From Amedibacterium intestinale (GTDB taxonomy: Bacteria > Bacillota_I > Bacilli_A > Erysipelotrichales > Erysipelotrichaceae): a stretch of 64,000 nucleotides of DNA. Shown here in pieces: positions 3,208 through 62,001 of this stretch. The stretch lies in NCBI RefSeq assembly GCF_010537335.1, contig NZ_AP019711.1, positions 744,001 to 808,000 on the forward strand, in the 5' to 3' direction. Below the pieces are notes generated by a model. It worked only from the letters and a program-made list of their open reading frames with translations. It did no database searches and was not told the origin of the DNA. The position numbers and the translations under genes were made by a program. Numbering within the stretch: position 1 is the first letter of the stretch; every line of letters begins with the position of its first letter.

Positions 3208-5200
3208 ACATAAATTCTTTACGTTTTAAAATATTAATGATATTTCGTCCTTCACTAACCCCATCAATGATACGGCGAGCTCTTACACTGTCACCAATAT
3301 TGATGATTTCTACATCTTCCTGTGCAAAAGCCTCTTCAATTTCAGATAGATGAGGTGCATAAGAACGCATTCCAAGGCATACAAAACCATAGTCAAAATC
3401 TAAACGTTCTATGTTCTCTGCACGTTTTACCATGAAATATGTATCTCCAACTTCCTGCAAAGCTGTTTCCGTTAATACATTTACATGATGTTTTTCCAGC
3501 ATATCATAAGTTCCAATTTTTGTGACGACATCCAAATCTTTTCCAACAACCGGCTGCATTTCTACAATACTTACCTCTGCATTTCGATTTGCGAAAAATT
3601 CTACCACATCAAGTCCAACAGCGCCACCGCCTACAACTACGACTTTTTTACCTGTGCAGTCTTCTGGATAAGAATCAATGTGTGAAATCATTCCTAAAAT
3701 ACCTTTTACTTTTGTTTCATCTTTATCAATATTTTCCTTTAACCCCTTAATTGGCGGTAATAAAGGTGTAGACCCACTTGCATTTATAATAATATCAGGT
3801 TTTAACATACGCAGCAGTTTTACATTGGCCTGCGTTTCTGTTAGGGCAATTAGATTTCGAAGTTTTTCTGCACGATGAATTAAATATGCAGGGAAATCAT
3901 GCAGACGTTTCTTTTCTGGAATCTTAGAAATTGCGACACTTAATCCACCAAGTTCCTTTTCTTTTTCAATCAAGAAAGTCGTACATCCAACTTCTGCTGC
4001 AGTACATGCTGCTTCCAAACCTGCACTGCCTCCACCGATAACAACCACATTGCATGGTTTCTTTATATTTTTTTCTTTATATCCATCTCCAATATTAACA
4101 CTTGGATTTACCGTACAGCGAATTGGACGATTTAAGCCAATACGATGTCCACTGCATCCAATATTACAGGAAATACATTTACGAATTTCATCTTCTTTTC
4201 CATATTTCGCTTTGTTTGGCCAATTAGGATCCGCAATCAGCTGTCTACCCAAACCTACAAAATCTGCATCTTCACTTTCAAGAATTTCTTCCGCAACTTT
4301 AGGATCTCGGATATTTCCGCAAGTAATGACAGGTTTATTGAATTTTTCTCTTATTGCCTTTGCCAGATAAGATTTCCAGCCATCTTTTAAGTAGTTTGCA
4401 TCAATCTGGTAATGAATAGAATCTACCAAACCTGCCGATACATCAAGAATATCCACTTCTTCCTGGAAATACGTCAATAGTTCCAATGTATCCTCTAGTG
4501 TATTTCCACCTTTCAAAAATTCATCTGCAGAAATTCTAACCAAGATAGGAAACATTGGTCCTACCTGTTTACGTACTTCTTCAATAACCAGTTTAGCAAA
4601 GCGTGCACGATTTTGTGCACTTCCACCAAATTCATCCTCACGATTATTGGTTAGCGGCGATAAAAACTGTGAAATCAAATAAGAATGTCCTGCGTGAATT
4701 TCAACAGCATCAAATCCGATGATTTGTGCACGTTTTGCAGCTTTTCCATATTTTTTTACGATTTCATAAATTTCTTCCGTTTTTAAAGGACGTGGTGTTT
4801 TTCCTCCTTTTTTATTTGGAAGATTTCCAGCGGAAACCGGCTGCATACCAATACGTTCTTCTAATGCACTGGCTCCGGCATGATTTAACTGAATCGCAAT
4901 TTTTGTACCATGTTTATGCACTTCTTCACACAATTTGTATAATCTAGGCATGTAGTTGTCATGATCGATTCTCAATTGTGTTGTCCCATTGGAACCGCCT
5001 GGATAGTCCACACAAGCATTTTCTACGATCAAAAGACCAGCTCCACCCATAGCTCGCTGTTCATAGTAGTCGATATGAAGAAAACTCATTTCCCCATTTT
5101 GTTCACCAAAGTTTGTTCCCATCGGTGTCATTACGACACGATTTGGAATCGTTACATTTTTTACGGTAATTGGCGAAAATAACTTTTTATACTTATTCAT
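3206..5200 (-). CDS. NADH:flavin oxidoreductase, old-yellow-enzyme/enoate reductase type
   Basis: A 664-residue enzyme of the 2,4-dienoyl-CoA reductase/BaiCD architecture. It has an N-terminal FMN TIM barrel (to about 340), then a 4Fe-4S cysteine cluster (CISCNIGC plus a downstream RCTVNP cysteine), then FAD- and NAD(P)-binding halves with GGGSAGLEAA and VVVVGGGAVGLD turns. Such enzymes reduce activated C=C bonds in the cytosol. The start was placed at the Met preceded by GAGGAGG, not at the upstream Met. As first gene of a LysR-linked locus next to a quinate/shikimate dehydrogenase-like enzyme, it may reduce a hydroaromatic acid such as dehydroshikimate or a derivative (inference). Confidence 0.9.
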   Translation of the reverse strand: MNKYKKLFSPITVKNVTIPNRVVMTPMGTNFGEQNGEMSFLHIDYYEQRAMGGAGLLIVENACVDYPGGSNGTTQLRIDHDNYMPRLYKLCEEVHKHGTKIAIQLNHAGASALEERIGMQPVSAGNLPNKKGGKTPRPLKTEEIYEIVKKYGKAAKRAQIIGFDAVEIHAGHSYLISQFLSPLTNNREDEFGGSAQNRARFAKLVIEEVRKQVGPMFPILVRISADEFLKGGNTLEDTLELLTYFQEEVDILDVSAGLVDSIHYQIDANYLKDGWKSYLAKAIREKFNKPVITCGNIRDPKVAEEILESEDADFVGLGRQLIADPNWPNKAKYGKEDEIRKCISCNIGCSGHRIGLNRPIRCTVNPSVNIGDGYKEKNIKKPCNVVVIGGGSAGLEAACTAAEVGCTTFLIEKEKELGGLSVAISKIPEKKRLHDFPAYLIHRAEKLRNLIALTETQANVKLLRMLKPDIIINASGSTPLLPPIKGLKENIDKDETKVKGILGMISHIDSYPEDCTGKKVVVVGGGAVGLDVVEFFANRNAEVSIVEMQPVVGKDLDVVTKIGTYDMLEKHHVNVLTETALQEVGDTYFMVKRAENIERLDFDYGFVCLGMRSYAPHLSEIEEAFAQEDVEIINIGDSVRARRIIDGVSEGRNIINILKRKEFM

Positions 5201-6542: not shown

Positions 6543-7808
6543 ATGAGATATGGTCTTATTGGAGAAAAGCTGGGACATAGCTTTTCCAAAGAAATTCATG
6601 AAAAAATTGCAGATTACACATACGATTTAATTCCATTAACTAAGCATGAGTTTCATACCTTTATGAAACAAAAAGATTTTGCGGCCATCAATGTCACGAT
6701 TCCCTATAAAAAAGATGTCATTCCCTATTTAGACGAAATGGACATGCAGGCAAAATCGATTGGGGCTGTTAATACGATTGTGAATAAGAATGGAAAATTA
6801 ATTGGACATAACACAGATTTTGATGGTTTCCTGTATATGGTTCGCCACCATAACATCCATATGAAAGATAAAAAAGTTTTGATCATCGGCAATGGCGGTG
6901 CTGCTCAGGCTGTCAAAGCGGTTGTAAAGCATGAACAGGCAAAAGAAATGATCATTGTTGATATCATAAAAACGGAAGATACGATTACCTATGATGAATG
7001 TTATGCTTTGCACAGTGATGCACAAATCATCATCAACACTTCCCCGGTTGGCATGTTTCCATCCATTGATGCCAGTCCGCTTCATCTGGAATATTTTAAA
7101 CAGTGTGAAGCACTGCTTGATGTCATATACAACCCTATTCTTACAAAACTGGCATTTGCAGCACAAGAACTAGGTATCAAACGTGTAAATGGATTAGAGA
7201 TGCTGGTTGCACAGGCAAAATATGCCGTTGAACATTTCCTGGATACAAAAATCGATGATGATATCATTGATAAAATTTACAAAGAATTGCTGATGAAGGA
7301 ATGTAACATTATCTTAATTGGCATGCCAAGTGCAGGAAAAACAACGATTGGAAAAATGCTGGAACAAAGAATGGATAAAAAGTTTATTGATTTAGATGAT
7401 GTCATTGTTGAAAAAGCAGGAATGACAATTCCTGAAATTTTTGATTTATTTGGTGAAGAAGGATTTCGACACCTGGAAACACTTGTCGCAAAAGAATTAA
7501 GTGCCATGCATAACATGATCATTGCGACTGGCGGTGGGACAATCAAAAACAAAGAAAATATGGATGCACTTCGATTAAATGGTATTATTATCTTTATTGA
7601 TCGGGATATCAACAAACTTATGACAAGTGATCCTAATCGTCCTTTATTAAAAAATGAAGATGCATTAAAGTCTTTACATAAAGAACGCTATCCGCTTTAT
7701 CAAAAATATGCAAGCATGGTTGTGATGAACAATGAAGCAATTGAACAAACCATAGAAGATGTGATACATGCCTATCAATCCATCATCTTGGAAGCTGTAG
7801 AAATATAA
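6543..7808 (+). CDS. Bifunctional shikimate dehydrogenase / shikimate kinase (AroE-AroK fusion)
   Basis: A 421-residue fusion. Residues 1-250 are AroE: HSFSKEIH substrate loop, catalytic Lys in NVTIPYKK, GHNTDFDG, NGGAAQAV nucleotide turn, NTSPVGMFP. Residues from about 257 are shikimate kinase: Walker A GMPSAGKTT, the DLDDVI motif, GEEGFRHLE and ATGGGT of the substrate site, and the lid RPLLKN. Together they catalyse dehydroshikimate to shikimate to shikimate-3-phosphate in the chorismate pathway. The ATG used has AGGAGG 8 nt upstream; an in-frame upstream ATG at 6513 lacks one. The gene is under the Phe/Tyr leader and is followed 13 nt later by DAHP synthase. Confidence 0.93.
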   Translation: MRYGLIGEKLGHSFSKEIHEKIADYTYDLIPLTKHEFHTFMKQKDFAAINVTIPYKKDVIPYLDEMDMQAKSIGAVNTIVNKNGKLIGHNTDFDGFLYMVRHHNIHMKDKKVLIIGNGGAAQAVKAVVKHEQAKEMIIVDIIKTEDTITYDECYALHSDAQIIINTSPVGMFPSIDASPLHLEYFKQCEALLDVIYNPILTKLAFAAQELGIKRVNGLEMLVAQAKYAVEHFLDTKIDDDIIDKIYKELLMKECNIILIGMPSAGKTTIGKMLEQRMDKKFIDLDDVIVEKAGMTIPEIFDLFGEEGFRHLETLVAKELSAMHNMIIATGGGTIKNKENMDALRLNGIIIFIDRDINKLMTSDPNRPLLKNEDALKSLHKERYPLYQKYASMVVMNNEAIEQTIEDVIHAYQSIILEAVEI

Positions 7809-7821
7809 GGAGATTTTGTTT

Positions 7822-8838
7822 ATGATTATTACATTAAAAAAAGACGCAAAACAGGAAGAAACAGAAAAACTGCTAAGAAGTCTTGAAAACAAAGGACTTT
7901 CTGTCAATATGATACAAGGGGATACCTTTAATGTTTTCGGTCTTGTCGGTGATACCTCAAAACTAGATGAACGGCTTATAAAAGCACACCCATTTGTAGA
8001 AAATGTACAACGAATTGCGGCACCTTATAAACTTGCGAACCGTATGTTTCATCCACAAGATACCATCATAGATGTAAATGGTATTCACATTGGCGGGAAA
8101 GAACCAATCGTTGTCATTGGAGGACCTTGCAGTGTAGAAAGTGAAGAAATGATTGAACGTATCGCATACAAAGTAAAAGAGGCAGGTGCGTGTATGCTTC
8201 GTGGTGGTGCCTACAAGCCAAGAACTTCCCCTTATGCTTTTCAAGGCATGGGAACACAAGGGATTCTCGCCATGGAAAAAGCAGGTAAAAAAACTGGACT
8301 TCCTATCGTTAGTGAACTTATGAGTGCAGATAAGCTGGATGAATTCATCGAACATGTCGATGTCATTCAAATTGGTGCTCGCAATATGCAAAACTTTGAC
8401 TTGTTAAAGGCTGTTGGAAAAACAAAGAAACCAATCCTTTTAAAAAGAGGACTTGCCAACACAATTGAAGAATGGATCATGGCAGCAGAATACATCCTGT
8501 CAGAAGGAAATCCAAATGTTATCTTCTGTGAGCGAGGCATACGAACCTTTGAACCGTATACAAGAAATACATTAGATCTTAGTGTCATTCCTATCATCAA
8601 AGAAAAAACACACCTGCCGATCATCATAGATCCAAGCCATGCCACCGGAGACTGGAAACTGGTAGAATCTGCCTCTTTGGCAGCTATCGCAGCAGGTGCA
8701 GATGGACTTATTATTGAGGTTCATGATGATCCAGAAAATGCGATGAGTGATGGTGTACAAAGTTTACTTCCAGAAAAATTTGATGCATTAGTAGAAAAAG
8801 GAAGAAAGATAGCGAAAGTCATGGGACGTTCAATTTAA
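7822..8838 (+). CDS. aroF: 3-deoxy-7-phosphoheptulonate (DAHP) synthase, AroA-beta type
   Basis: A 338-residue enzyme joining PEP and erythrose-4-phosphate, the first step of aromatic amino acid synthesis. A short ferredoxin-like regulatory domain (about 1-70) is followed by the barrel with GGPCSVES, GARNMQNFDLL and IIDPSHATG metal/substrate motifs. This N-terminal domain mediates Phe/Tyr feedback in Thermotoga-type enzymes (family knowledge). The ATG follows TAAGGAG, which overlaps the stop of aroE-aroK, so the two are translationally linked. A strong terminator follows. Together with the aromatic leader peptide, the entry step appears controlled at both RNA and enzyme level. Confidence 0.93.
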   Translation: MIITLKKDAKQEETEKLLRSLENKGLSVNMIQGDTFNVFGLVGDTSKLDERLIKAHPFVENVQRIAAPYKLANRMFHPQDTIIDVNGIHIGGKEPIVVIGGPCSVESEEMIERIAYKVKEAGACMLRGGAYKPRTSPYAFQGMGTQGILAMEKAGKKTGLPIVSELMSADKLDEFIEHVDVIQIGARNMQNFDLLKAVGKTKKPILLKRGLANTIEEWIMAAEYILSEGNPNVIFCERGIRTFEPYTRNTLDLSVIPIIKEKTHLPIIIDPSHATGDWKLVESASLAAIAAGADGLIIEVHDDPENAMSDGVQSLLPEKFDALVEKGRKIAKVMGRSI

Positions 8839-42006: not shown

Positions 42007-43524
42007 CTACTTTAAAAAAATATCAAGATAAATTTGACCACCGCGTCCCCTTCCAAAGTCTTCGCATTCATAATCTATGTGGTCAATTACTTCTTTTAAA
42101 AAGTCATTCTTATATTTTGCTCCAATACTATCATCTTTTAAACTTTCAATTATTTGTTTTAATGTGACGATTTTTTCTTCATAATTTACTTCTTCACCTA
42201 CTTTCAATTTTTCCGCTTCAAGTTGTTTTTCTAATTCTTCAATTTTAACGGTCAAAATACCCTTTCGTTCAATGAATTCTTCTTTTGTATAGATTCCGTC
42301 TTCAAGATAATCAAATAGCTTTGTACGGCTCTTTTTTAGCTTGATAAGTTCTTTTTCTATAAATTCAATCACGTCATCTTGCTTTTTCTTGTTTTCAATC
42401 TCGAATTCATTTGTCATCTTTAATTCAAAATCTTCGATATGCGCTTTTAACCCAATAATTACCGCGTCAATAACTTCTTTTGCGGACGATGACTTCATTT
42501 TACAAAACACGCTATGGACGTGAACATATCTTGGTGACATATTTGGTCTAGTTGAATATCCTTGATAAACTAATTTTTTTCCACAAGACTTACAACATAA
42601 TATGCCCGCTAAAGGATTTTGAAGTTCTCTTGAAATTTGTGTCTTTGAATTTTTTCCAATTCTGTTTTGCACTCGTTCATAAAGTTCTTCGTCGATAATC
42701 GCTTCGTGTTTTCCATCGTATATTTCGAAATTGACCTTGTTTCGAACATTCATTTTTTTCATTTTGCCATCAACAAACTCTTTTTTCATTTCTCGATTTT
42801 TCCATCTTATTTTCCCAATGTAATGAGGATTTTTCAGAATGTCAATTATACAACTGTGATTCCATTCTTTATTTCCGCTCGGACTGGTTACTCCCATTAA
42901 AGAAAGTTTACTTGCGATTTTGCTTGCTCCCAAATTATCATTTGCATACCATTCATAAATCATTTTTACAATTTTTGCGTCCTCATTTGGTTTAAGGGTA
43001 ATGTCTTTCTTTCCTCTGCGCCAAATATCATATCCGTATGGTGCACACCCGCCGATATAATTTCCTTCTTGAACTGAAATTTTGCGTCCGCGATCAAGTC
43101 TTCTTTTGATGGTCTTATATTCTCGTCGGGACATGAACAATCCGAATTCAAAATATTCTTCATCATATTCATTGTTTGGGTCGTATGTTTTAATGGGTGT
43201 AATTATTTTCGTATTCGAGTATTTGAACGCTTCAGCGACGTCACCTTGGTCACGCGTATCACCACGCGCCAATCGTTCAACTTCCATAACCAAGACGCCT
43301 TCCCATTTCTTCAAATAAACATCGTCCAACAATTGCTTCATTTGTGGTCTATCTGCGATACTTTCACCCGAAACAATTTCTTTGTAAATGCGACCAATCG
43401 GCAATTCTTGACGTTTCGCCAGTTCCGTCAATATTTTTTCATGCCGTGCCAACGTTTCCATTTCGCCTAATGCTTCCATTTCGGCGTCGGCTCGTGATTT
43501 TCGCAAATATATTGCGTATGCCAT
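42007..43524 (-). CDS. int: Large serine recombinase (prophage integrase)
   Basis: A 505-residue large serine integrase. The resolvase domain (1-150) has nucleophile Ser in YLRKSR (6-11) and VMEVERLARGDT. The recombinase domain (about 160-260) has GCAPYGYD and NPHYIGK. The zinc-ribbon domain follows, with CCKSCGKKL and a later Cys pair, then a coiled coil (about 365-440). It would integrate and, with a directionality factor, excise the phage. AAGGGA precedes the ATG. It is the last gene of the leftward lysogeny module, with its 3' end at the boundary. Confidence 0.94.
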   Translation of the reverse strand: MAYAIYLRKSRADAEMEALGEMETLARHEKILTELAKRQELPIGRIYKEIVSGESIADRPQMKQLLDDVYLKKWEGVLVMEVERLARGDTRDQGDVAEAFKYSNTKIITPIKTYDPNNEYDEEYFEFGLFMSRREYKTIKRRLDRGRKISVQEGNYIGGCAPYGYDIWRRGKKDITLKPNEDAKIVKMIYEWYANDNLGASKIASKLSLMGVTSPSGNKEWNHSCIIDILKNPHYIGKIRWKNREMKKEFVDGKMKKMNVRNKVNFEIYDGKHEAIIDEELYERVQNRIGKNSKTQISRELQNPLAGILCCKSCGKKLVYQGYSTRPNMSPRYVHVHSVFCKMKSSSAKEVIDAVIIGLKAHIEDFELKMTNEFEIENKKKQDDVIEFIEKELIKLKKSRTKLFDYLEDGIYTKEEFIERKGILTVKIEELEKQLEAEKLKVGEEVNYEEKIVTLKQIIESLKDDSIGAKYKNDFLKEVIDHIDYECEDFGRGRGGQIYLDIFLK

Positions 43525-43547
43525 ATTTTATCCCTTCTTTCCCAAGT

Positions 43548-43800
43548 ATGAACAAGTAGAACATAAGTTGAACACTTAAAAACCCTTTGTTTATAGGCTC
43601 ATTTGACATTTTGTTCAACTTGTTCAAGTTGTTCACCTTTTTTTCTATATTTATATATTTTTTATTTATATAATGTTATTTTTTACTTTAATTTTTAATT
43701 TCTTATAAAAAGGCTTTTGTTCATGAACAACTTGAACAGTGCTTAAAACCCGCATAAATAAAGGCTCATTTACTGTTCAACTTTGTTCATTTGTTCGAGT
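43548..43800. repeat. Two ~75-bp imperfect repeats rich in GTTCAA motifs
   Basis: Copies at 43548-43636 and 43719-43800 share GAAC-rich left ends, a centre CTTAAAA(A)CCC...ATA..GGCTCATTT, and right ends of spaced TGTTCAACTT/GTTCA units. GAAC/GTTC arms make each copy partly palindromic. They lie between the integrase and the broken ImmA gene, with an AT-only stretch between them. Confidence 0.65.
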
Positions 43801-44283
43801 TAAAATCAAACATATACTTGAAAAATTCATTTAATGATATATTTTCGACATCAACATTGACATTTTTCAATATCTCATTTCTTAATTCTTGATACTCTTT
43901 TTCGTTACAACCTCGCACATAACATAATTCACGATAAGAATTCACATTGGTCAATTCAATTGTTTCGAACAACAATTTTATTGCGAATTTAATTCCTTCG
44001 GTTTCGTTCTTTGACCAAATATGATAATTTGGAAACCTATTTTTCCAAATGACGATTCGTTCATTTTCCTTTGTTAACGCATGAAAAAGTAAATGTCCGA
44101 CCGTAAATTCCCGATGATACCAAGGAACATCATCACTGATATGAATAAATTTTTGACCATCGACTTGATTGTAGTATCCATATATTTCCCAAGTGGTTCA
44201 TAAACCAATTTGATATTGTTTTGAATTGCGATTTGAAAAGCATTATTCGTCCCGTGTTTCTCCACCAGTTCTTTTACTATCAT
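43787..44283 (-). pseudogene. ImmA/IrrE-type protease, frameshifted
   Basis: Frame 1 from 44283 gives the ImmA N-terminus (HGTNNAFQIAIQNNIKLVYE PLGK region). After a one-base shift near 44183-44190, frame 2 gives YGYYNQVDGQKFIHISDD, PWYHREFTVGHLLFHALT and the C-terminal part to NSNK. In intact ImmA proteins the zinc motif reads HExxH; here it reads HLLFH, so the catalytic Glu is lost. ImmA normally cleaves the adjacent repressor on induction. The gene overlaps the repressor gene by 41 nt, the standard arrangement. Confidence 0.75.
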
Positions 44284-44686
44284 TTTGCACCTTCTTAATT
44301 AGTCTACCCGTATTTATTGAATTTTGAAGGCTAGAAATAAGAAGTTTACGCGTTTCTTTGTCGAGCGTTTCACCCTCGAAAACAATGTTATTTTGGTCGT
44401 TTTCCAATTCCTCAATCATTCGTCTAATTGAAACAGAAACATCGCTTATTTCGTCTGTTTCGCCTTCATCGGGTGTTATTAAGTTAGTGTTTCCCAATAA
44501 ATAGTCTACCGATACACCGAAATAATTGGATAAAAAGTTGATTTTGTCCATTGGTGGTGTAATCTTTCCACGTTCATACTCGCCGTATGTACTTCGTTGA
44601 ATTTTTAATAATTTGGACATTTCTTCTTGTGTCAATTTTCTTCCTTTGTAATGAGTTCTTAAATATTTCAATCTTTCAGCAAACAT
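44243..44686 (-). CDS. cI-like prophage repressor (XRE family)
   Basis: A 147-residue repressor: HTH at about 14-68 (LTQEEMSKLLKIQRSTYGEY, NYFGVSVDYLLGNT), then an acidic helical C-terminus typical of repressors paired with ImmA rather than self-cleaving LexA-like ones. The Met chosen lies after GAAGGGA; the longer ORF starts upstream of the transcription start. Its promoter carries an operator (GCCATTACAAATGGCAT) that recurs at three other prophage promoters, so it probably represses itself and them. Confidence 0.9.
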   Translation of the reverse strand: MFAERLKYLRTHYKGRKLTQEEMSKLLKIQRSTYGEYERGKITPPMDKINFLSNYFGVSVDYLLGNTNLITPDEGETDEISDVSVSIRRMIEELENDQNNIVFEGETLDKETRKLLISSLQNSINTGRLIKKVQNDSKRTGGETRDE

Positions 44687-44713
44687 ATATTTTTCCCTTC
44701 TTTCTGTACACAT

Positions 44714-44743
44714 ATAATACGCCATTACAAATGGCATTGTCAA
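44714..44743 (-). promoter_or_regulatory. Repressor promoter with operator 1
   Basis: TTGACA (44743-44738) and TATTAT (44719-44714), 18-nt spacer. The palindrome GCCATTACAAATGGCAT (44721-44737) fills the spacer. Confidence 0.8.
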
Positions 44744-44762
44744 CTAAAATGTTATTTTCCAA

Positions 44763-44793
44763 ACAAAAAAGACAACAATTTTGTTGCCTTTTA
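44763..44793 (-). terminator. Terminator after the antirepressor gene
   Basis: On the minus strand AAAAGGCAACA pairs with TGTTGTCTTTT and a further T-run follows. Confidence 0.85.
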
Positions 44794-45498
44794 ATCAAAT
44801 TCATAGAATCCTGTTAGTTTTCCATCGACACGATGTCTTTTGACTTTCGCACCAGTTTGACGTCTTATTTCTTTTGAAAACTCGTTCAGTGATAGCGGTT
44901 TGAAAAGGTTGTCTTCACAAAACGATGTGTAATCACTGTGAATTCTTTTTGTCGGAATATCAAGTAATTCATCTTTTTCAATATCGTTTAGATAAGCCCT
45001 TACGCTTTTACTTCTTGAACCAACAATTTCATTGTCATTGACTATGACTGGAACTTTTATTTCGAATAATGTCATCAATGCTTCAACACCTTTTGCGTTC
45101 TTACATTTCGAAATAAGCGTCGCAATCTCAATTTTATTGTCATAACTCAATTCACCATAATGACCAGTTTTTCGAATCTCTTTTAAAATCTCTTTGATTT
45201 TCTTCTTGAACTGTTTCGCAATTGGTTTGCGTGATTGCATAAATACTTCATACAATCCATCTTCCGTCAAGAACCATGATTTTTGATTTCCACCAAGGGT
45301 GTGAACAATATTCACAACCTTTTCGTCTTCATCAACTGATTGAATCATTCTTGATACTTGACTGTGTTCAATCCATTCCGCAACGTCCTTTGCTAAAAAC
45401 AAAGGGTTTTCTATTGTATTATAAATAGATATTGTTTTTCCTAGAAACTCATAGTTTCCAATCGTTTTCATTTCGTTTTGTTTTAAAAGTGTTTCCAT
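44791..45498 (-). CDS. Phage antirepressor with Bro-N domain
   Basis: About 235 residues. The N-terminal Bro-N domain (FLGKTISIYNTIENPLFLAKDVAEWI; then VVNIVHTLGGNQKSWFLTEDGLYEVFMQSRKPIAKQFKKKI) is followed by a helical linker and a C-terminal winged-helix-like domain also seen in poxvirus/phage D5-associated proteins (DYTSFCEDNLFKPLSLNEF). Antirepressors counter cI-like repressors. The Met after AAGGAG is preferred over the GTG 13 codons upstream. It is downstream of the RHH gene, in a transcript controlled by operator 2. Confidence 0.85.
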   Translation of the reverse strand: METLLKQNEMKTIGNYEFLGKTISIYNTIENPLFLAKDVAEWIEHSQVSRMIQSVDEDEKVVNIVHTLGGNQKSWFLTEDGLYEVFMQSRKPIAKQFKKKIKEILKEIRKTGHYGELSYDNKIEIATLISKCKNAKGVEALMTLFEIKVPVIVNDNEIVGSRSKSVRAYLNDIEKDELLDIPTKRIHSDYTSFCEDNLFKPLSLNEFSKEIRRQTGAKVKRHRVDGKLTGFYEFD

Positions 45499-45602
45499 CT
45501 TACTAAAAATCTCCTTCATTAAAATTTTTTCTTGCACATCAAGGACATTTTTTGTAAAATATTTATGTCTTGATGTAATTGTGTCAAGAAATTATGTTAG
45601 GT

Positions 45603-45645
45603 GAAGTAGATTTCAGTTTGGCGACGTTAATCTACTTCTTTTTTA
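45603..45645 (+). terminator. Plus-strand terminator hairpin in the early region
   Basis: GAAGTAGATT (45603-45612) and AATCTACTTC (45629-45638) pair perfectly and are followed by a T-run on the plus strand. All surrounding genes run leftward, so it may end an antisense or small RNA. Confidence 0.65.
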
Positions 45646-45806
45646 TTTTCCAAAAATTCGACAATCCATTCGCGAATCAATGTTGATTTGTTTAAATTTA
45701 ATTTTTTACATTTTTTTGTAAATTCGTCGTATAAATCATTTTCTAATCTCAACGTTATTTGTTGTCCTTTTGGATTTTCACTTTTTGGTCTACCCATCTT
45801 CGCCAT
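45627..45806 (-). CDS. Ribbon-helix-helix DNA-binding protein
   Basis: A 59-residue protein. MAKMGRPKSENPKGQQITLR gives the basic N-arm and beta strand, LENDLYDEFTKKCKKLNLNK helix A and turn, and STLIREWIVEFLENKKE helix B: the Arc/CopG fold. Such phage proteins regulate early genes. GGTG precedes the ATG. Its own promoter (45854-45882) has a perfect palindrome in the spacer and is flanked by a 12-bp inverted repeat. The antirepressor gene follows about 130 nt downstream. Confidence 0.82.
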   Translation of the reverse strand: MAKMGRPKSENPKGQQITLRLENDLYDEFTKKCKKLNLNKSTLIREWIVEFLENKKEVD

Positions 45807-45853
45807 GTCTTCACCATCCTTTCATTGTGGGTAGCAATCTCTTGACGTTTTAC

Positions 45854-45882
45854 ATTATAGTTTTTGCAATGCAAAAAGTCAA
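45854..45882 (-). promoter_or_regulatory. Promoter of the RHH gene with its own palindrome
   Basis: TTGACT (45882-45877), 17-nt spacer, TATAAT (45859-45854). The spacer holds TTTTTGCA-A-TGCAAAAA (45861-45877), a perfect 8+1+8 palindrome unrelated to the repressor operator. It is a likely autoregulatory site of the RHH protein (inference). Confidence 0.75.
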
Positions 45883-45923
45883 TATAATTTTCAGAATATT
45901 TAGATTATTCTACCCACAATGAC

Positions 45924-45952
45924 ATTATAGCCATTTTAAATGGCATTGTCAA
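45924..45952 (-). promoter_or_regulatory. Promoter with operator 2, upstream of RHH and antirepressor
   Basis: TTGACA (45952-45947), 17-nt spacer, TATAAT (45929-45924), a full-consensus promoter. The operator GCCATTTTAAATGGCAT (45930-45946) occupies the spacer. Confidence 0.85.
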
Positions 45953-45968
45953 AGCATATCGTTTTATT

Positions 45969-45997
45969 TTGACATTCTTTTCCAAATTAAATATAAT
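45969..45997 (+). promoter_or_regulatory. Consensus plus-strand promoter of the 174-residue gene
   Basis: TTGACA (45969-45974), 17-nt spacer, TATAAT (45992-45997). No repressor palindrome is present in it, so it is probably active in the lysogen. Confidence 0.82.
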
Positions 45998-46019
45998 TCT
46001 CATGGAAGTGGTGAAAATA

Positions 46020-46544
46020 ATGTTTAATTTTTTAAAGAAAACAAAAGAACAAAATGAATATTTGTTGGAATGGCAAAATACTGTAATGATAGATAAAAGT
46101 GATAAATTATATATGACAAAAAATCAACTTATATCTATAACAAAAAGTCAAGCTCTTCGTGATATGGAGATAATTGACGATTGTATTAGATTAGTTAAGG
46201 AAACAAAAAACGTCGAAACATTTTTCGGACGCCTTGAACTTTTAGAAAATAAGTCTATTCACCTATCTAGTCTTGAAAAATATTTGGACTTTACTGGTGC
46301 AAAACCAAGTCAAGCGTTACAAGAATTTAATGAAGAAAAGCAAATTGCTATTAAAGAATTTTTAATTAGATATTTTACATCAATTATGGATAAGATGGAT
46401 AATTTAAAAACAGAACGTGGAAAAATTAATCAAATTCAAAAATTTTATAATTCTTTAACCCCTTATTTTGATTTGATGAATGAAGAAAATATAGAATACA
46501 TACGAACTAAATATAAAGCACATACACGAACACTCAATAAATGA
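46020..46544 (+). CDS. Unknown prophage protein on the opposite strand (possible lysogenic-conversion gene)
   Basis: A 174-residue, charged, mostly helical protein starting MFNFLKKTKEQNEYLLEWQN, with no signal peptide or membrane segment. ETFFGRLELLENKSIHLSSL and the RYFTSIMDKMDNLKTERGKI helix are prominent. I recognise no family. It is the only plus-strand gene in the prophage part seen here and has its own consensus promoter, a GGTGA ribosome site and a terminator. Genes with this setting often serve the lysogen (immunity, exclusion, host fitness), but no function is shown. Confidence 0.75.
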   Translation: MFNFLKKTKEQNEYLLEWQNTVMIDKSDKLYMTKNQLISITKSQALRDMEIIDDCIRLVKETKNVETFFGRLELLENKSIHLSSLEKYLDFTGAKPSQALQEFNEEKQIAIKEFLIRYFTSIMDKMDNLKTERGKINQIQKFYNSLTPYFDLMNEENIEYIRTKYKAHTRTLNK

Positions 46545-46556
46545 GTGTTTTTTATT
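46529..46556 (+). terminator. Terminator of the 174-residue gene
   Basis: AACACTCA (46529-46536) pairs with TGAGTGTT (46542-46549), followed by Ts; the stop codon is in the 3' arm. Confidence 0.85.
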
Positions 46557-46576
46557 TTATGACATTTAAAATAAAA

Positions 46577-46595
46577 ATGACATTTTAAATGTCAT
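46577..46595. repeat. Palindrome ATGACATTTTAAATGTCAT, copy 1
   Basis: A perfect palindrome at the 3' end of the AAA+ gene, one base per arm different from the repressor operator. Leftward it is followed by TTTTTATTTT, so it may also terminate that gene. An identical copy is at 47856-47874. Confidence 0.7.
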
Positions 46596-46598
46596 TTA

Positions 46599-47771
46599 TT
46601 AGCATAAAGATTTTAAGGCTTTTGTATATTTATCATTTGAAGCCATTTCGCTCGCAATTATTTTGATGTCATCAACGTTCAATCCTTTTGTCAAAGATAT
46701 TTTCAACACCTTTGGAAGTTCGAACACGTTTTCTAGTTTTGATATTCTTTCTAATGAACGATAAGTGAATAGACAACGTATTCCACATCTATTCGTTACT
46801 TTTCTGAATCTGTGGGCGAAGTTACATAATTCATCATTTCCGTTTGTCACGGCTTTTTCAATAGTTGGTGAATAATCAACTTCAATCAATGCGAATCTAT
46901 CGAGTGATGACGCGTCCAACTGGAATCGACCAGTATATTCGATGTCTGCACCTGTTCCACAAGTGTTCCCCGCGCTCACGATTCTAAAATCGGGGTGTGC
47001 TTCAACTTTACCAATCGGAAAATCAAAATATCGGTTTGCGATTGCACTATTTAAAATGATAAGTGTTTCGGGAATTGAACCGTCCATTTCATCAAGGAAG
47101 AACAAACCGCCCTGTGTAAATGCTTTATAGAACTGTGTTTCATGGAATTTCCCATTTGCGTCGATGAATCCTTTCAACTGGTATTCTTGCGTTACCGCAT
47201 TCGTGAAATAGAAATCAAGCCCAAGTGATTCGGCAATCTGTTTGCAAATGACGTTCTTTCCTGTTCCCGCCTGTCCTGTCAAGAAAACGGGAATGTCAAG
47301 ATTCACAAGATTCAATACATCGTCGAATTTTTCATGTACAACACCTTGAACTTCATGTGTTCCGTTCGGTGTAACAACTTCATGTTTTTGAGGTAAAACG
47401 CCGAATTCTTCAATGATGTGTTTTTCCAACATTGGTTTTGCCATTTCGATGACTTGGTCAACACTTTGTTTTGCTAATACTTCCGCGAATAATTCTTCAA
47501 GTTTTGATGTTGGTTGGGGTGTTGGTGTCTGTGGTTGTGCGTGGAATAAAACCGTCATTTCTTCCCATTTTTTTATTGCTTCGTCCAAATTGTCCGTATA
47601 TTCATTTCTTAAATTTGGATATAAAGGACGTTGTGAACCGTCACTTTCACATTTCCAATCACTGTTATAGATTCGATTTTGAAACATGATTTTGATGTTC
47701 ATGATTCCATTTATCATGTCTTTTTCGTCGGCAATCAAAGCGATTCTTTCGCAAGTTTTTAATATAATCAT
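46599..47771 (-). CDS. MoxR/CbbQ-type AAA+ ATPase of the prophage
   Basis: A 390-residue protein. A variable N-terminal part (1-150, including a Pro/Gln-rich linker near 80-88) precedes a MoxR-type AAA+ core: Walker A GQAGTGKN, Walker B LFFLDEMD, sensor 1 VSAGNTCG, and Arg finger region SSLDRFALIEVDY. A helical lid follows with TYRSLERISKL. MoxR ATPases act as chaperones with VWA-type partners; the gene upstream encodes a VWA-like protein. GGAG precedes the ATG. Its promoter contains operator 3. The role in the phage cycle is unknown. Confidence 0.86.
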   Translation of the reverse strand: MIILKTCERIALIADEKDMINGIMNIKIMFQNRIYNSDWKCESDGSQRPLYPNLRNEYTDNLDEAIKKWEEMTVLFHAQPQTPTPQPTSKLEELFAEVLAKQSVDQVIEMAKPMLEKHIIEEFGVLPQKHEVVTPNGTHEVQGVVHEKFDDVLNLVNLDIPVFLTGQAGTGKNVICKQIAESLGLDFYFTNAVTQEYQLKGFIDANGKFHETQFYKAFTQGGLFFLDEMDGSIPETLIILNSAIANRYFDFPIGKVEAHPDFRIVSAGNTCGTGADIEYTGRFQLDASSLDRFALIEVDYSPTIEKAVTNGNDELCNFAHRFRKVTNRCGIRCLFTYRSLERISKLENVFELPKVLKISLTKGLNVDDIKIIASEMASNDKYTKALKSLC

Positions 47772-47809
47772 TCTCTTTCTCCTTGGGGTTCTGCCCCTTT
47801 ACGTCAAAT

Positions 47810-47839
47810 ATTATATGCCATTGTAAATGGCATTGTCAA
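47810..47839 (-). promoter_or_regulatory. AAA+ gene promoter with operator 3
   Basis: TTGACA (47839-47834), 18-nt spacer, TATAAT (47815-47810). The operator ATGCCATTGTAAATGGCAT (47815-47833) fills the spacer. Confidence 0.84.
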
Positions 47840-47855
47840 CAATTATTTTTAAGTA

Positions 47856-47874
47856 ATGACATTTTAAATGTCAT
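47856..47874. repeat. Palindrome ATGACATTTTAAATGTCAT, copy 2
   Basis: Identical to 46577-46595. It overlaps the 3' end of the VWA-like gene, 17 bp from operator 3. No T-run follows leftward, so an operator-like role is possible. Confidence 0.65.
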
Positions 47875-48671
47875 TTTATGTTAAAATTTTTTATAATTTC
47901 TTTTACATCATAGTCATATTTTTTCGTATACTTCAAATCGACAAATATTTCGTCTTTGTCTAGCAAATACTTTTCGATTTCTTGTTTATCGTTAAATTGA
48001 CTACCATATCCATACGGCCAATTTTCTTTCAATCCTTCGACCGTTTCCAACCATTTGAAGCCTAGACGTCTAAACATTGACGGGTGGGCTACGGGAAAAC
48101 ATAATTTTTGTAAATCCAAGTGTTCGCGATAATCTTTCACATCAATCGTCCCGAATGCCCTGTCGTCATCTTCTCTAGCGCAATAGAAACATATTCGCAA
48201 TTTCACTCGTATTCCTTGAAGTTCAAGTGAATTGATGACACCTAGAATCGCAATTCCCGAACGAACAAATTCTTCTTTGTCTGTAAAGCAATTTGCGGTT
48301 ATACAATAACAAATTGATAGCGTCTTTGTTTTTTGTGGTTTTGATTCTGTCGCAATCATTGAATTTGGAAGCCCCAAAATCGCATTTGGAACATGGGGCG
48401 CATAACCTATCACATTCGTTGTTACTTGACGTCTATTGATGAACGACATTTGACTTGTTTGTTCTCCGACCGCACGTTTAATTTGCGGTAAAATTTCTTT
48501 GTATCCAAACTGATACAATTTTTTTGCTTCATCATAAGAATGTGTTTTTGTAAACTCATAATCATTTGAACGACTAGAATCTTCATTTCTCATAATTTTG
48601 TTGTTTGGTCTTGATTCGATTGTTCTTATCATTTCATCAATTGATTTGAAATGTTCTTTAACTATATTCAT
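47871..48671 (-). CDS. VWA-like partner protein of the AAA+ ATPase
   Basis: 266 residues. An N-terminal region with HSYDEAKKLYQFGYKEILP, then a Rossmann-like part resembling phage VWA-like proteins: TLSICYCITANCF at the expected metal-site strand, then RSGIAILGVINSLELQGIRVKLRICF as helix and strand, and HPSMFRRLGFKWLET. The metal motif DxSxS is replaced, so metal binding may be lost. The fold call rests on pattern only. It sits between an 85-residue gene and the AAA+ gene and probably works with the latter. Confidence 0.65.
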   Translation of the reverse strand: MNIVKEHFKSIDEMIRTIESRPNNKIMRNEDSSRSNDYEFTKTHSYDEAKKLYQFGYKEILPQIKRAVGEQTSQMSFINRRQVTTNVIGYAPHVPNAILGLPNSMIATESKPQKTKTLSICYCITANCFTDKEEFVRSGIAILGVINSLELQGIRVKLRICFYCAREDDDRAFGTIDVKDYREHLDLQKLCFPVAHPSMFRRLGFKWLETVEGLKENWPYGYGSQFNDKQEIEKYLLDKDEIFVDLKYTKKYDYDVKEIIKNFNIK

Positions 48672-48687
48672 TTTTCATTCTCCTTTC

Positions 48688-48945
48688 TCAACCTATAATT
48701 TTAATTTCACAATGATATTTGAAATTATCATCGCACCAAGATTTTATTTCCACAATATCCCCTTTTATAACAATTTCATAGTCACCACTTGTTGGATAAT
48801 ATCTATATCTTTTTCCGTTTTTATCTTCACAAATGACAACTATATTAATTTGCGAATTACTATATACACTATTACTATAATAACCTGTTTTAACTTCAAC
48901 TTTTTGATATTCTCTAACTTCTAACACTTTTAATTTTTCTTTCAT
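48688..48945 (-). CDS. Small beta-rich protein of unknown function
   Basis: 85 residues, MKEKLKVLEVREYQKVEV start, alternating strands, Tyr-rich centre, no membrane segment. GAGGTGAT precedes the ATG. It is the first gene of the transcript from operator 4, 16 nt before the VWA-like gene. No family recognised. Confidence 0.7.
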   Translation of the reverse strand: MKEKLKVLEVREYQKVEVKTGYYSNSVYSNSQINIVVICEDKNGKRYRYYPTSGDYEIVIKGDIVEIKSWCDDNFKYHCEIKIIG

Positions 48946-48964
48946 TTTTCATCACCTCGATGAT

Positions 48965-48994
48965 ATTATATGCCATTCATAATGGCATTGTCAA
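48965..48994 (-). promoter_or_regulatory. Accessory operon promoter with operator 4
   Basis: TTGACA (48994-48989), 18-nt spacer, TATAAT (48970-48965). The operator ATGCCATTCATAATGGCAT (48970-48988) fills the spacer. A half-like AATGCCGTTTT follows at 49001. Confidence 0.84.
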
Positions 48995-49016
48995 TATAAA
49001 AATGCCGTTTTAAACC

Positions 49017-49056
49017 AATAAAAAAGAACCTATCCCGTTAAAGGATAGGCTTTTTA
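49017..49056 (-). terminator. Terminator of the late operon after the amidase
   Basis: Minus-strand AGCCTATCC pairs with GGATAGGTT (allowing G-T) around a short loop, then a T-run. It separates the lysis genes from the accessory operon. Confidence 0.85.
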
Positions 49057-49058
49057 TT

Positions 49059-49937
49059 TTAATAAGTTAAATTGTCAATGTTGAACGCGGTATTCAAACC
49101 GTCACCTAATACAACTCGTTTACCCTTGATTTCGATAACTTTGAAATACTTGGTAGTAAGAAAAGAAGCTAGTTTTACACCATCATAAGACACCGCTTTT
49201 TTAGGTTTTGCTTTCATACCGACTTTCAACGTTTTTGTTGTTGAAGTTCCTTTCTTTCCAGTAATACAATTATCGTTTACCCAACCCAAATTTCCATTGT
49301 CTAATAGATATGGGTTTTTTGCTCCCGCAACAATTTTTGTGATTTTTCCACTTGTTTTTGCGGGTTTCAATTTGGTAGTTGAAGAAGATGAAGTGTAAAC
49401 ACCGTTAATATTTACCGTATCATCAACTTTATATTTTGTTCCTGTACTTGGTTTTGGTGGTTGTGGCTTTGGCGTGCTTGGTTTTGAACCATTCATGATT
49501 TCTTGTGCGCGTTTCTTAATGTATGATAATTTTGCATAATATCGACCAGGGCAAGAAGTCGCGCTCACGTCTTTATGACCAACAATTGGTAATACGCCAT
49601 AAACTTCGTATAAGTCGGCAACTAATTCGCATACAGTTTCCAAGTCTTGCGCCGACATTTCGGGACGACATTCGATTCCAATTGATTTCAAATTGTGTGC
49701 AAAATTTCCCGCGTGCCATGCGGTGTCCGCACAATCTACCAAACAAGCAACTTTTCCGCCTTCAATTACATAGTGTGCGGAACTGTTCCCATTCTTTCGA
49801 CATAACCAATTTACAACACCATTGAATGACTGTCCATCAATTCCCCAATGATGAATTACAATTTCTGAAATTTTGTTTCCTTGTCTTCCTTCTGTGTAGT
49901 TTGGGCTATCGTATTTCGTAATGTATTCGTATGACAT
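49059..49937 (-). CDS. Endolysin: N-acetylmuramoyl-L-alanine amidase with SH3-like repeats
   Basis: 292 residues. The amidase_2 domain (1-155) has zinc ligands in VIHHWG, TAWHAGN and the GHKDVSATSCPG loop. A Pro/Lys linker (about 153-168, PKPQPPKP) leads to two SH3b-like wall-binding segments (about 170-225 and 236-292). It cuts the Ala-muramic bond of peptidoglycan to release phage. It lies after the holin genes as the last late gene. Confidence 0.92.
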   Translation of the reverse strand: MSYEYITKYDSPNYTEGRQGNKISEIVIHHWGIDGQSFNGVVNWLCRKNGNSSAHYVIEGGKVACLVDCADTAWHAGNFAHNLKSIGIECRPEMSAQDLETVCELVADLYEVYGVLPIVGHKDVSATSCPGRYYAKLSYIKKRAQEIMNGSKPSTPKPQPPKPSTGTKYKVDDTVNINGVYTSSSSTTKLKPAKTSGKITKIVAGAKNPYLLDNGNLGWVNDNCITGKKGTSTTKTLKVGMKAKPKKAVSYDGVKLASFLTTKYFKVIEIKGKRVVLGDGLNTAFNIDNLTY

Positions 49938-61981: not shown

Positions 61982-62001
61982 TGCCATTTTAAATGTCATG
62001 G
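61982..62001. repeat. Operator-like palindrome in the structural region
   Basis: TGCCATTTTAAATGTCATGG combines the left half of the repressor operator with the variant right half. No TATAAT is placed around it as at the other sites. Confidence 0.45.

Follow-up and report, generated by a model that had tools for sequence, protein, structure and literature searches.

A MoxR-type ATPase and a VWA-like DUF7192 partner with predicted repressor operators in a prophage of Amedibacterium intestinale

MoxR-type AAA+ ATPases that work together with a VWA protein offer the closest described parallels to the gene pair considered here, which lies in a prophage of Amedibacterium intestinale, within positions 744001-808000 of a 2,488,096-base contig (this 64 kb stretch is called the window below). 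The nearest fold for the VWA-like protein, and one of the nearest for the ATPase, is found in NorQ/NorD, a pair of a MoxR AAA+ ATPase and a VWA protein that loads iron into nitric oxide reductase. In NorD, a finger made of residues 403-448 enters the ring pore and contacts the helix-2 insert, and without the finger no iron is inserted, as described in PMC13036017. A single strand connects the finger to the residues of the metal-ion-dependent adhesion site (MIDAS), and exchange of MIDAS residues leaves NorQ binding in place but abolishes maturation of the target enzyme (passages of PMC9976466). Further parallels are the rubisco activase CbbQ/CbbO, the phage CobS/CobT genes annotated as 'cobST' or 'porphyrin biosynthesis', and the MoxR ATPases of jumbo phages with a metallopeptidase-VWA protein nearby (passages of PMC7824862), a similar pair being present in Acinetobacter phage At2. 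We consider it moderately probable that the A. intestinale genes encode a phage-borne MoxR AAA+/VWA remodelling pair, which is shut off by the prophage repressor and switched on when the phage is induced or infects a cell.

Read leftward from the lysis amidase gene, the locus consists of a terminator, a promoter with an operator, an open reading frame of 85 residues, a 266-residue protein, a second promoter with an operator, and the 390-residue ATPase. The three reading frames and the late terminator had been placed in the same way by an earlier, sequence-only reading of this DNA, with which the list of open reading frames and the sequence agree. The features are as follows.

49059-49937: lysis amidase gene
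49018-49049, minus strand: intrinsic terminator separating the lysis amidase gene from the 85-residue gene, a CCTATCC/GGATAGG stem with a T-run (read from the sequence)
48965-48994, minus strand: promoter TTGACA-18-TATAAT for the 85-residue frame and, by read-through, DUF7192 (sequence)
48971-48987, no strand: operator TGCCATTCATAATGGCA in the spacer of this distal promoter (pattern search)
48688-48945, minus strand: 85-residue orphan open reading frame, first gene after the distal promoter (no relatives found)
47871-48671, minus strand: DUF7192 protein, 266 residues, compact and VWA-like with a degenerate MIDAS; residues 74-112 are the proposed pore finger (Pfam, model, conservation)
47857-47873, no strand: second operator, TGACATTTTAAATGTCA, its centre 41 bp upstream of that of the ATPase operator (pattern search)
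47810-47839, minus strand: promoter TTGACA-18-TATAAT for the ATPase (sequence)
47816-47832, no strand: operator TGCCATTGTAAATGGCA in the ATPase promoter spacer (pattern search)
46599-47771, minus strand: MoxR-class AAA+ ATPase, 390 residues, phrog_249 with the label 'porphyrin biosynthesis' (AAA_5, phrog_249, AlphaFold2 model)
46578-46594, no strand: operator copy TGACATTTTAAATGTCA just past the ATPase stop, with no promoter recognised (pattern search)

The assignment of the ATPase to the MoxR type, already made from the sequence, is borne out by family and fold matches. It matches the Pfam family AAA_5 with 41.6 bits (cut-off 22) and the PHROGs family phrog_249 with an E-value of 1.5e-62, and the G-K of Walker A and the D-E of Walker B are invariant in 10 of 10 alignment rows. 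The top fold matches of its AlphaFold2 model are CbbQ (E 8e-13) and NorQ (E 1e-12), with ranks 1-21 of the PDB matches all being chains of these two proteins. CbbQ is the best single match, although the partner here is DUF7192 and not CbbO. At two related loci (L016, positions 7256-8379, and L017), an insert of about 1.1 kb splits the ATPase gene inside the helix-2 insert; it carries pieces of reading frames that we take to be LAGLIDADG-like. No Rfam intron was found at the split gene of L016.

The 266-residue partner matches Pfam DUF7192 with 102.3 bits (cut-off 27), the sole Pfam family above cut-off, as well as phrog_1909, a PHROGs family of unknown function. Its structure was predicted from 12 sequences and, like all structures here, as a single chain. 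Foldseek ranks 1-4 in the PDB are NorD VWA chains of NorQ-NorD complexes (E 9.4e-4 to 1.4e-2), and VIA-align returns NorD with Z-scores of 8.3, 7.4, 7.4 and 7.3, followed by Rea1-MIDAS with 7.0 and other VWA domains with 5-5.6; the top match, 9qhd_G (Z 8.3), has a root-mean-square deviation of 4.6 over 158 aligned residues. Judged by the model, the best fold matches are thus exactly those VWA domains that plug AAA+ rings. In the viral library BFVD, the matches that follow 12 close rows, of which 7 bear the name DUF7192, include phage VWA and CobT proteins. The model points with moderate confidence to a VWA fold. Two observations add weight to it: the separately predicted ATPase has CbbQ and NorQ as its matches, and in the viral library the DUF7192 proteins are followed by phage VWA and CobT proteins.

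The loss of the DxSxS motif from this VWA-like partner, proposed from the sequence alone, is confirmed, and the VWA-like character is supported by the likeness of the model to NorQ-bound NorD and to Rea1-MIDAS. With the register set by eye, a full MIDAS DxSxS after strand 1 is present in none of the 19 homologues: the residues there are CITAN in the window protein, NSSIS in that of phage G1 and NSSES at locus L026. The loss is general across these homologues and not peculiar to the window protein. It denies a MIDAS-type VWA only; the motif is not required for the fold. DUF7192 further differs from NorD in having no N-terminal domain or linker, and the pair consists of phage genes with no such target known.

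The loop of residues 74-112 precedes the strand 116-123 (strand 1), a place that matches the NorD finger. Inside this loop, at 89-105, lies the 17-residue stretch that is most strongly conserved in the family, with a mean top-residue share of 0.59 against 0.37 overall in alignment A4 of 19 loci, which is biased at the finger since its search patterns were derived from residues 87-102, with 12 of the 19 loci found independently of the motif. Alignment A1 peaks at the same stretch (0.56 against 0.41). G100 is present at all 19 loci, G89 and P102 at 18 each, and the conserved motif can be written as G-x(4)-V-P-x(4)-G-x-P-x-x-M. From this position and conservation, and because MIDAS exchange in NorD spares NorQ binding but stops maturation, we infer that the DUF7192 family retained the coupling to the motor and lost the metal-bridged target contact.

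The two genes are found together in many phages. At 17 loci reached via DUF7192 (L002, L005, L006, L010, L014-L026), an open reading frame matching the ATPase profile is always present and in 16 cases adjacent, the remaining one (L010) having a single opposite-strand gene in between; several loci look like near-duplicates (L014/L015, L016/L017, L018/L019, L023/L024), so that about 13 of the 17 are independent. The sequence-only reading had made its case depend on homologues of the two proteins co-occurring, and at these loci they do so throughout. Approached from the other side, 14 phage records fetched via the ATPase (L003, L007-L009, L011-L013, L121-L127) show more varied partners: by Pfam, DUF7192 in seven (in L009 behind two small genes), CobT_C in three and a DUF2201 metallopeptidase-VWA in one, while two have a large 'peptidase' partner lacking a Pfam match and one (P-SSM2) has none recognised in the stretch. 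According to passages of PMC8651126, the cobT gene of cyanophages is usually misidentified as a peptidase. At L012, L013 and L124-L127, CobS-type ATPases lie near replication genes, and five of the six have a partner that is CobT-like or a 'peptidase'. The identity matrices of ATPase and DUF7192 over 19 loci correlate with r 0.89, a value reached by 0 of 5000 permutations, which shows the two genes to be inherited as a unit.

DUF7192 occurs in 241 records of the phage collection (E 1e-3), 236 of which are Staphylococcus phages, and members found by profile extend to phages of Listeria, Mycobacterium, Gordonia, Rhizobium, Acinetobacter and Alteromonas; the pair is often labelled 'porphyrin biosynthesis' or CobS in these genomes. 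The same two families stand side by side in Kayvirus G1 (ORF024/ORF038) and Listeria phage P100 (gp90/gp91). These phages, compared here by family matches with operators outside the comparison, differ from the window in being large and virulent and in having the gene order reversed, with the ATPase first. The earlier suggestion that the pair is an undescribed system does not hold in this form: the ATPase belongs to phrog_249, its partner to the widespread DUF7192/phrog_1909, and phage MoxR-VWA pairs have been published as a class (passages of PMC7824862, PMC8651126 and PMC7911831). The full-text literature searched holds no mention of DUF7192, and no published description of such a prophage pair was seen in the literature search. 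In the searched passages of transcriptome papers, where expression timing was sought, the Kayvirus pair is not named.

The operators of the control region are palindromic, and with at most one mismatch their pattern occurs eight times in the window against 0.59 expected, a count reached in 0 of 100 shuffles. The form TGNCATTNNNAATGNCA has seven exact copies in the whole 2.49 Mb genome, all within the prophage at 790.6-826.8 kb. Three of the five perfect-hexamer promoters (16-18 bp spacing) in the window hold an operator, and two of these are the promoters of the pair locus, as had been read from the sequence. The other elements of this regulatory set are listed here.

44243-44686, minus strand: helix-turn-helix repressor candidate, with an orthologue (44% identity, 1e-40) in L014, a phage with the same operator
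44714-44743, minus strand: promoter of the repressor gene, with an operator copy at 44720-44736 in its spacer (sequence)
45924-45952, minus strand: third perfect promoter, with an operator at 45929-45945, upstream of a CopG/Arc-like gene at 45627-45806 (sequence)
61982-61998, no strand: exact operator copy beside a gene start in the structural region (pattern search)

Three further phages share the pair and the same operators in matching promoters. In L014 they lie in the promoters of DUF7192 (5917) and the ATPase (6851), in L002 at 2092, before a 99-residue frame preceding DUF7192, and at 3400, before the ATPase, and in L045 in the promoters of both genes, the DUF7192 copy deviating at both ends of the pattern. 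Some of these operators overlap the -35 hexamer and are not entirely within the spacer. In ten other DUF7192 loci (L005, L016-L022, L025, L026), the pattern was not found at one mismatch or fewer; L003, L006-L011, L023, L024, L121 and L122 were outside the scan. The repressors of the window and of L014 are orthologues (44% identity, E 1e-40), their Cro proteins are 54% identical, and the combination of an orthologous repressor with a matching operator offers indirect support for the repressor binding these sites. For well-known phage repressors, a site between -35 and -10 brings about repression in the lysogen, and by analogy the pair is probably switched off there. The identical TGACATTTTAAATGTCA copies at 46578-46594 and 47857-47873 lie at gene ends, outside promoters, and could be secondary operators or roadblocks.

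The 85-residue frame does not share in this recurrence. It has no family in Pfam, PHROGs, PADLOC or NCBIfam, its only Pfam match being below cut-off (E 0.015), no relative among 50,697 phage records, no confirmed relative in IMG/VR by peptide patterns and no other match in the host genome, and across 28 loci it matches only its own copies. The small gene at this place differs or is missing in other phages, and a conserved third gene is rejected, no relative being present in any collection searched. Co-occurrence elsewhere is thus seen for the pair and its operators, in three phages, and not for the 85-residue protein. A different small frame of about 60 residues, related by eye, lies near the pair and beside operator copies in L045 (13270-13455) and L002 (1783-1959), and the small frames near the pair in L014 and the window are other ones again.

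Taken as a remodelling pair, the ATPase would assemble as a hexameric ring, and DUF7192 would act as a stripped-down VWA cochaperone whose conserved loop plugs the ring pore as the NorD finger does. Hydrolysis of ATP would then rotate this plug and remodel the protein complex bound by DUF7192. Because the MIDAS is degenerate, target binding would not be classically metal-bridged. As a guess, the target is probably a complex either of the host or of phage DNA metabolism, and not cobaltochelatase.

Several points weigh against this reading. Both proteins were modelled as single chains, and the target is a guess. The 12-sequence DUF7192 model reaches a mean predicted local distance difference test (pLDDT) score of 76.7, with the proposed finger, residues 74-112, modelled below 50. 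TM-scores between DUF7192 and NorD are low (0.21-0.23), VIA-align itself cautions that a Z near 8 may reflect a common arrangement, and the DUF7192 profile finds no match among PDB sequences even at E 10. The operators are inferred from sequence, and repressor binding is a prediction. Finally, in a third phage of this repressor type (L038/L039/L040, also L043/L044), related operators are present but the 22,483-base record, which may be a fragment, shows no DUF7192. A search by repressor similarity gave 80 loci, of which only L045 and L042, the latter located on the L014 contig, have the pair within the available stretch. Because that phage lacks the pair and few repressor-related loci carry it, the pair is probably accessory in this phage group; the pair-less phage fits such a status and has no bearing on function.

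Among other explanations, a motor acting on the phage or host replisome appears unlikely. It would agree with the CobS-type ATPases found near polymerase, clamp, clamp-loader, primase or helicase genes in ICP2, P-SSM2, pJN2-26, RHph_Y2_17_1, HTVC008M and S-RIM44, a raw count made with no comparison with chance, but DUF7192-type pairs have no constant replication neighbour in the maps seen, and the replication genes of the window are distant from the pair. A chaperone pair for virion assembly, acting on a phage structural protein, is rather unlikely. Such a role has a reported precedent in Acidianus two-tailed virus and has been suggested for jumbo phages (passages of PMC7824862), and one operator copy lies beside a gene of the structural region; however, the pair has its own promoters outside the late operon, is present in phages of many genera, and is absent from the possibly fragmentary record of the same-repressor-type phage. 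We regard a prophage defence or superinfection system protecting the lysogen as quite improbable. MoxR-vWA ternary conflict systems do exist (passages of PMC7159879), and the pair occupies an accessory slot with the lysis genes on one side and the repressor and integrase on the other. Yet both promoters contain operators, which predicts that the genes are silent in the lysogen. No PADLOC family matches better than E 0.003, Kayvirus G1 and Listeria P100, both virulent, are among the phages with the same pair, and Pfam shows no VMAP, iSTAND, FtsH-type or beta-propeller component among the nine proteins of 42007-49937. With the genes expected to be off in the lysogen and no additional component found in the neighbourhood, its protection by the pair lacks support. 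The ternary conflict system was rejected for want of a third component nearby and of a PADLOC family; the proposal that the 85-residue protein forms its third part is likewise not supported, this protein having no relative in the collections searched and the small gene being variable.

A role as a CobS/CobT-like auxiliary metabolic pair, boosting cobalamin synthesis via the host's CobN, is very improbable. Cobaltochelatase requires CobN. This gene was found in none of 41 genomes, comprising the host and 40 relatives, whereas 5 of 14 controls have it. Since the host lacks CobN, cobalt chelation is unlikely and was rejected for this host. The ATPase scores 14.2 bits against the CobS equivalog TIGR01650 of NCBIfam, where the cut-off is 558.55, and the partner matches DUF7192 and not CobT_C, being about half the size of phage CobT or less. 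In favour stand the label 'porphyrin biosynthesis' of phrog_249 and the publication of phage CobS-type ATPases as cobalamin auxiliary metabolic genes (passages of PMC8651126 and PMC11705849). The usual vitamin-B12 gene label is probably wrong here. The ATPase of Alteromonas phage R22Y was published as a cobalamin auxiliary metabolic gene (passages of PMC11705849), and the gene after it is a DUF7192 member (E 3e-8). The jumbo-phage pair, a MoxR ATPase with a nearby VWA protein like the one described here, differs in that DUF7192 has no peptidase domain.

The surrounding prophage extends from about position 42007 of the window, where a large serine recombinase lies, rightward past the window end. 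Its last recognised gene encodes a Cro-like helix-turn-helix protein of 61 residues, which together with the surrounding operators lies at about 826.5-826.8 kb of the contig. A search for attL/attR repeats found no shared stretch longer than 13 bp, and the prophage limits given here are approximate. The CopG/Arc-like gene (45627-45806, minus strand) has a second, nearer promoter at 45882 on the minus strand; another palindrome, TTTTTGCATTGCAAAAA, lies in the spacer of this promoter and suggests self-regulation. At 46017-46544 on the plus strand lies a 175-residue gene of phrog_7974 (unknown function) with a perfect TTGACA-17-TATAAT promoter at 45969; because this promoter holds no operator, the gene may be expressed in the lysogen. 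A Bro-N antirepressor (44791-45537, minus strand) has a Pox_D5-like C-terminus, and a similar ending is found in the D5-type primase of the same prophage, named by eye (L027, 10665-12542).

With the remodelling pair as the preferred reading, a phage family of unknown function gains a fold and a mechanism based on its partner, and the cobalamin reading of CobS-like phage ATPases is called into question, at least where the partner is DUF7192, including R22Y. As a tentative extension, which we hold to be possible but doubtful, DUF7192 may found a phage-specific class of 'finger-only' VWA cochaperones that lost the MIDAS and kept the finger, a general phage motor that temperate phages silence by repressor and that is made immediately during lytic growth, where it would dismantle or reprogram a host complex, possibly a defence complex. 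If this were true, the 'CobS/porphyrin' label would be wrong throughout for phage ATPases with a DUF7192 partner. The temperate versions place the motor under repressor-type operators, which makes its time of action directly testable by induction.

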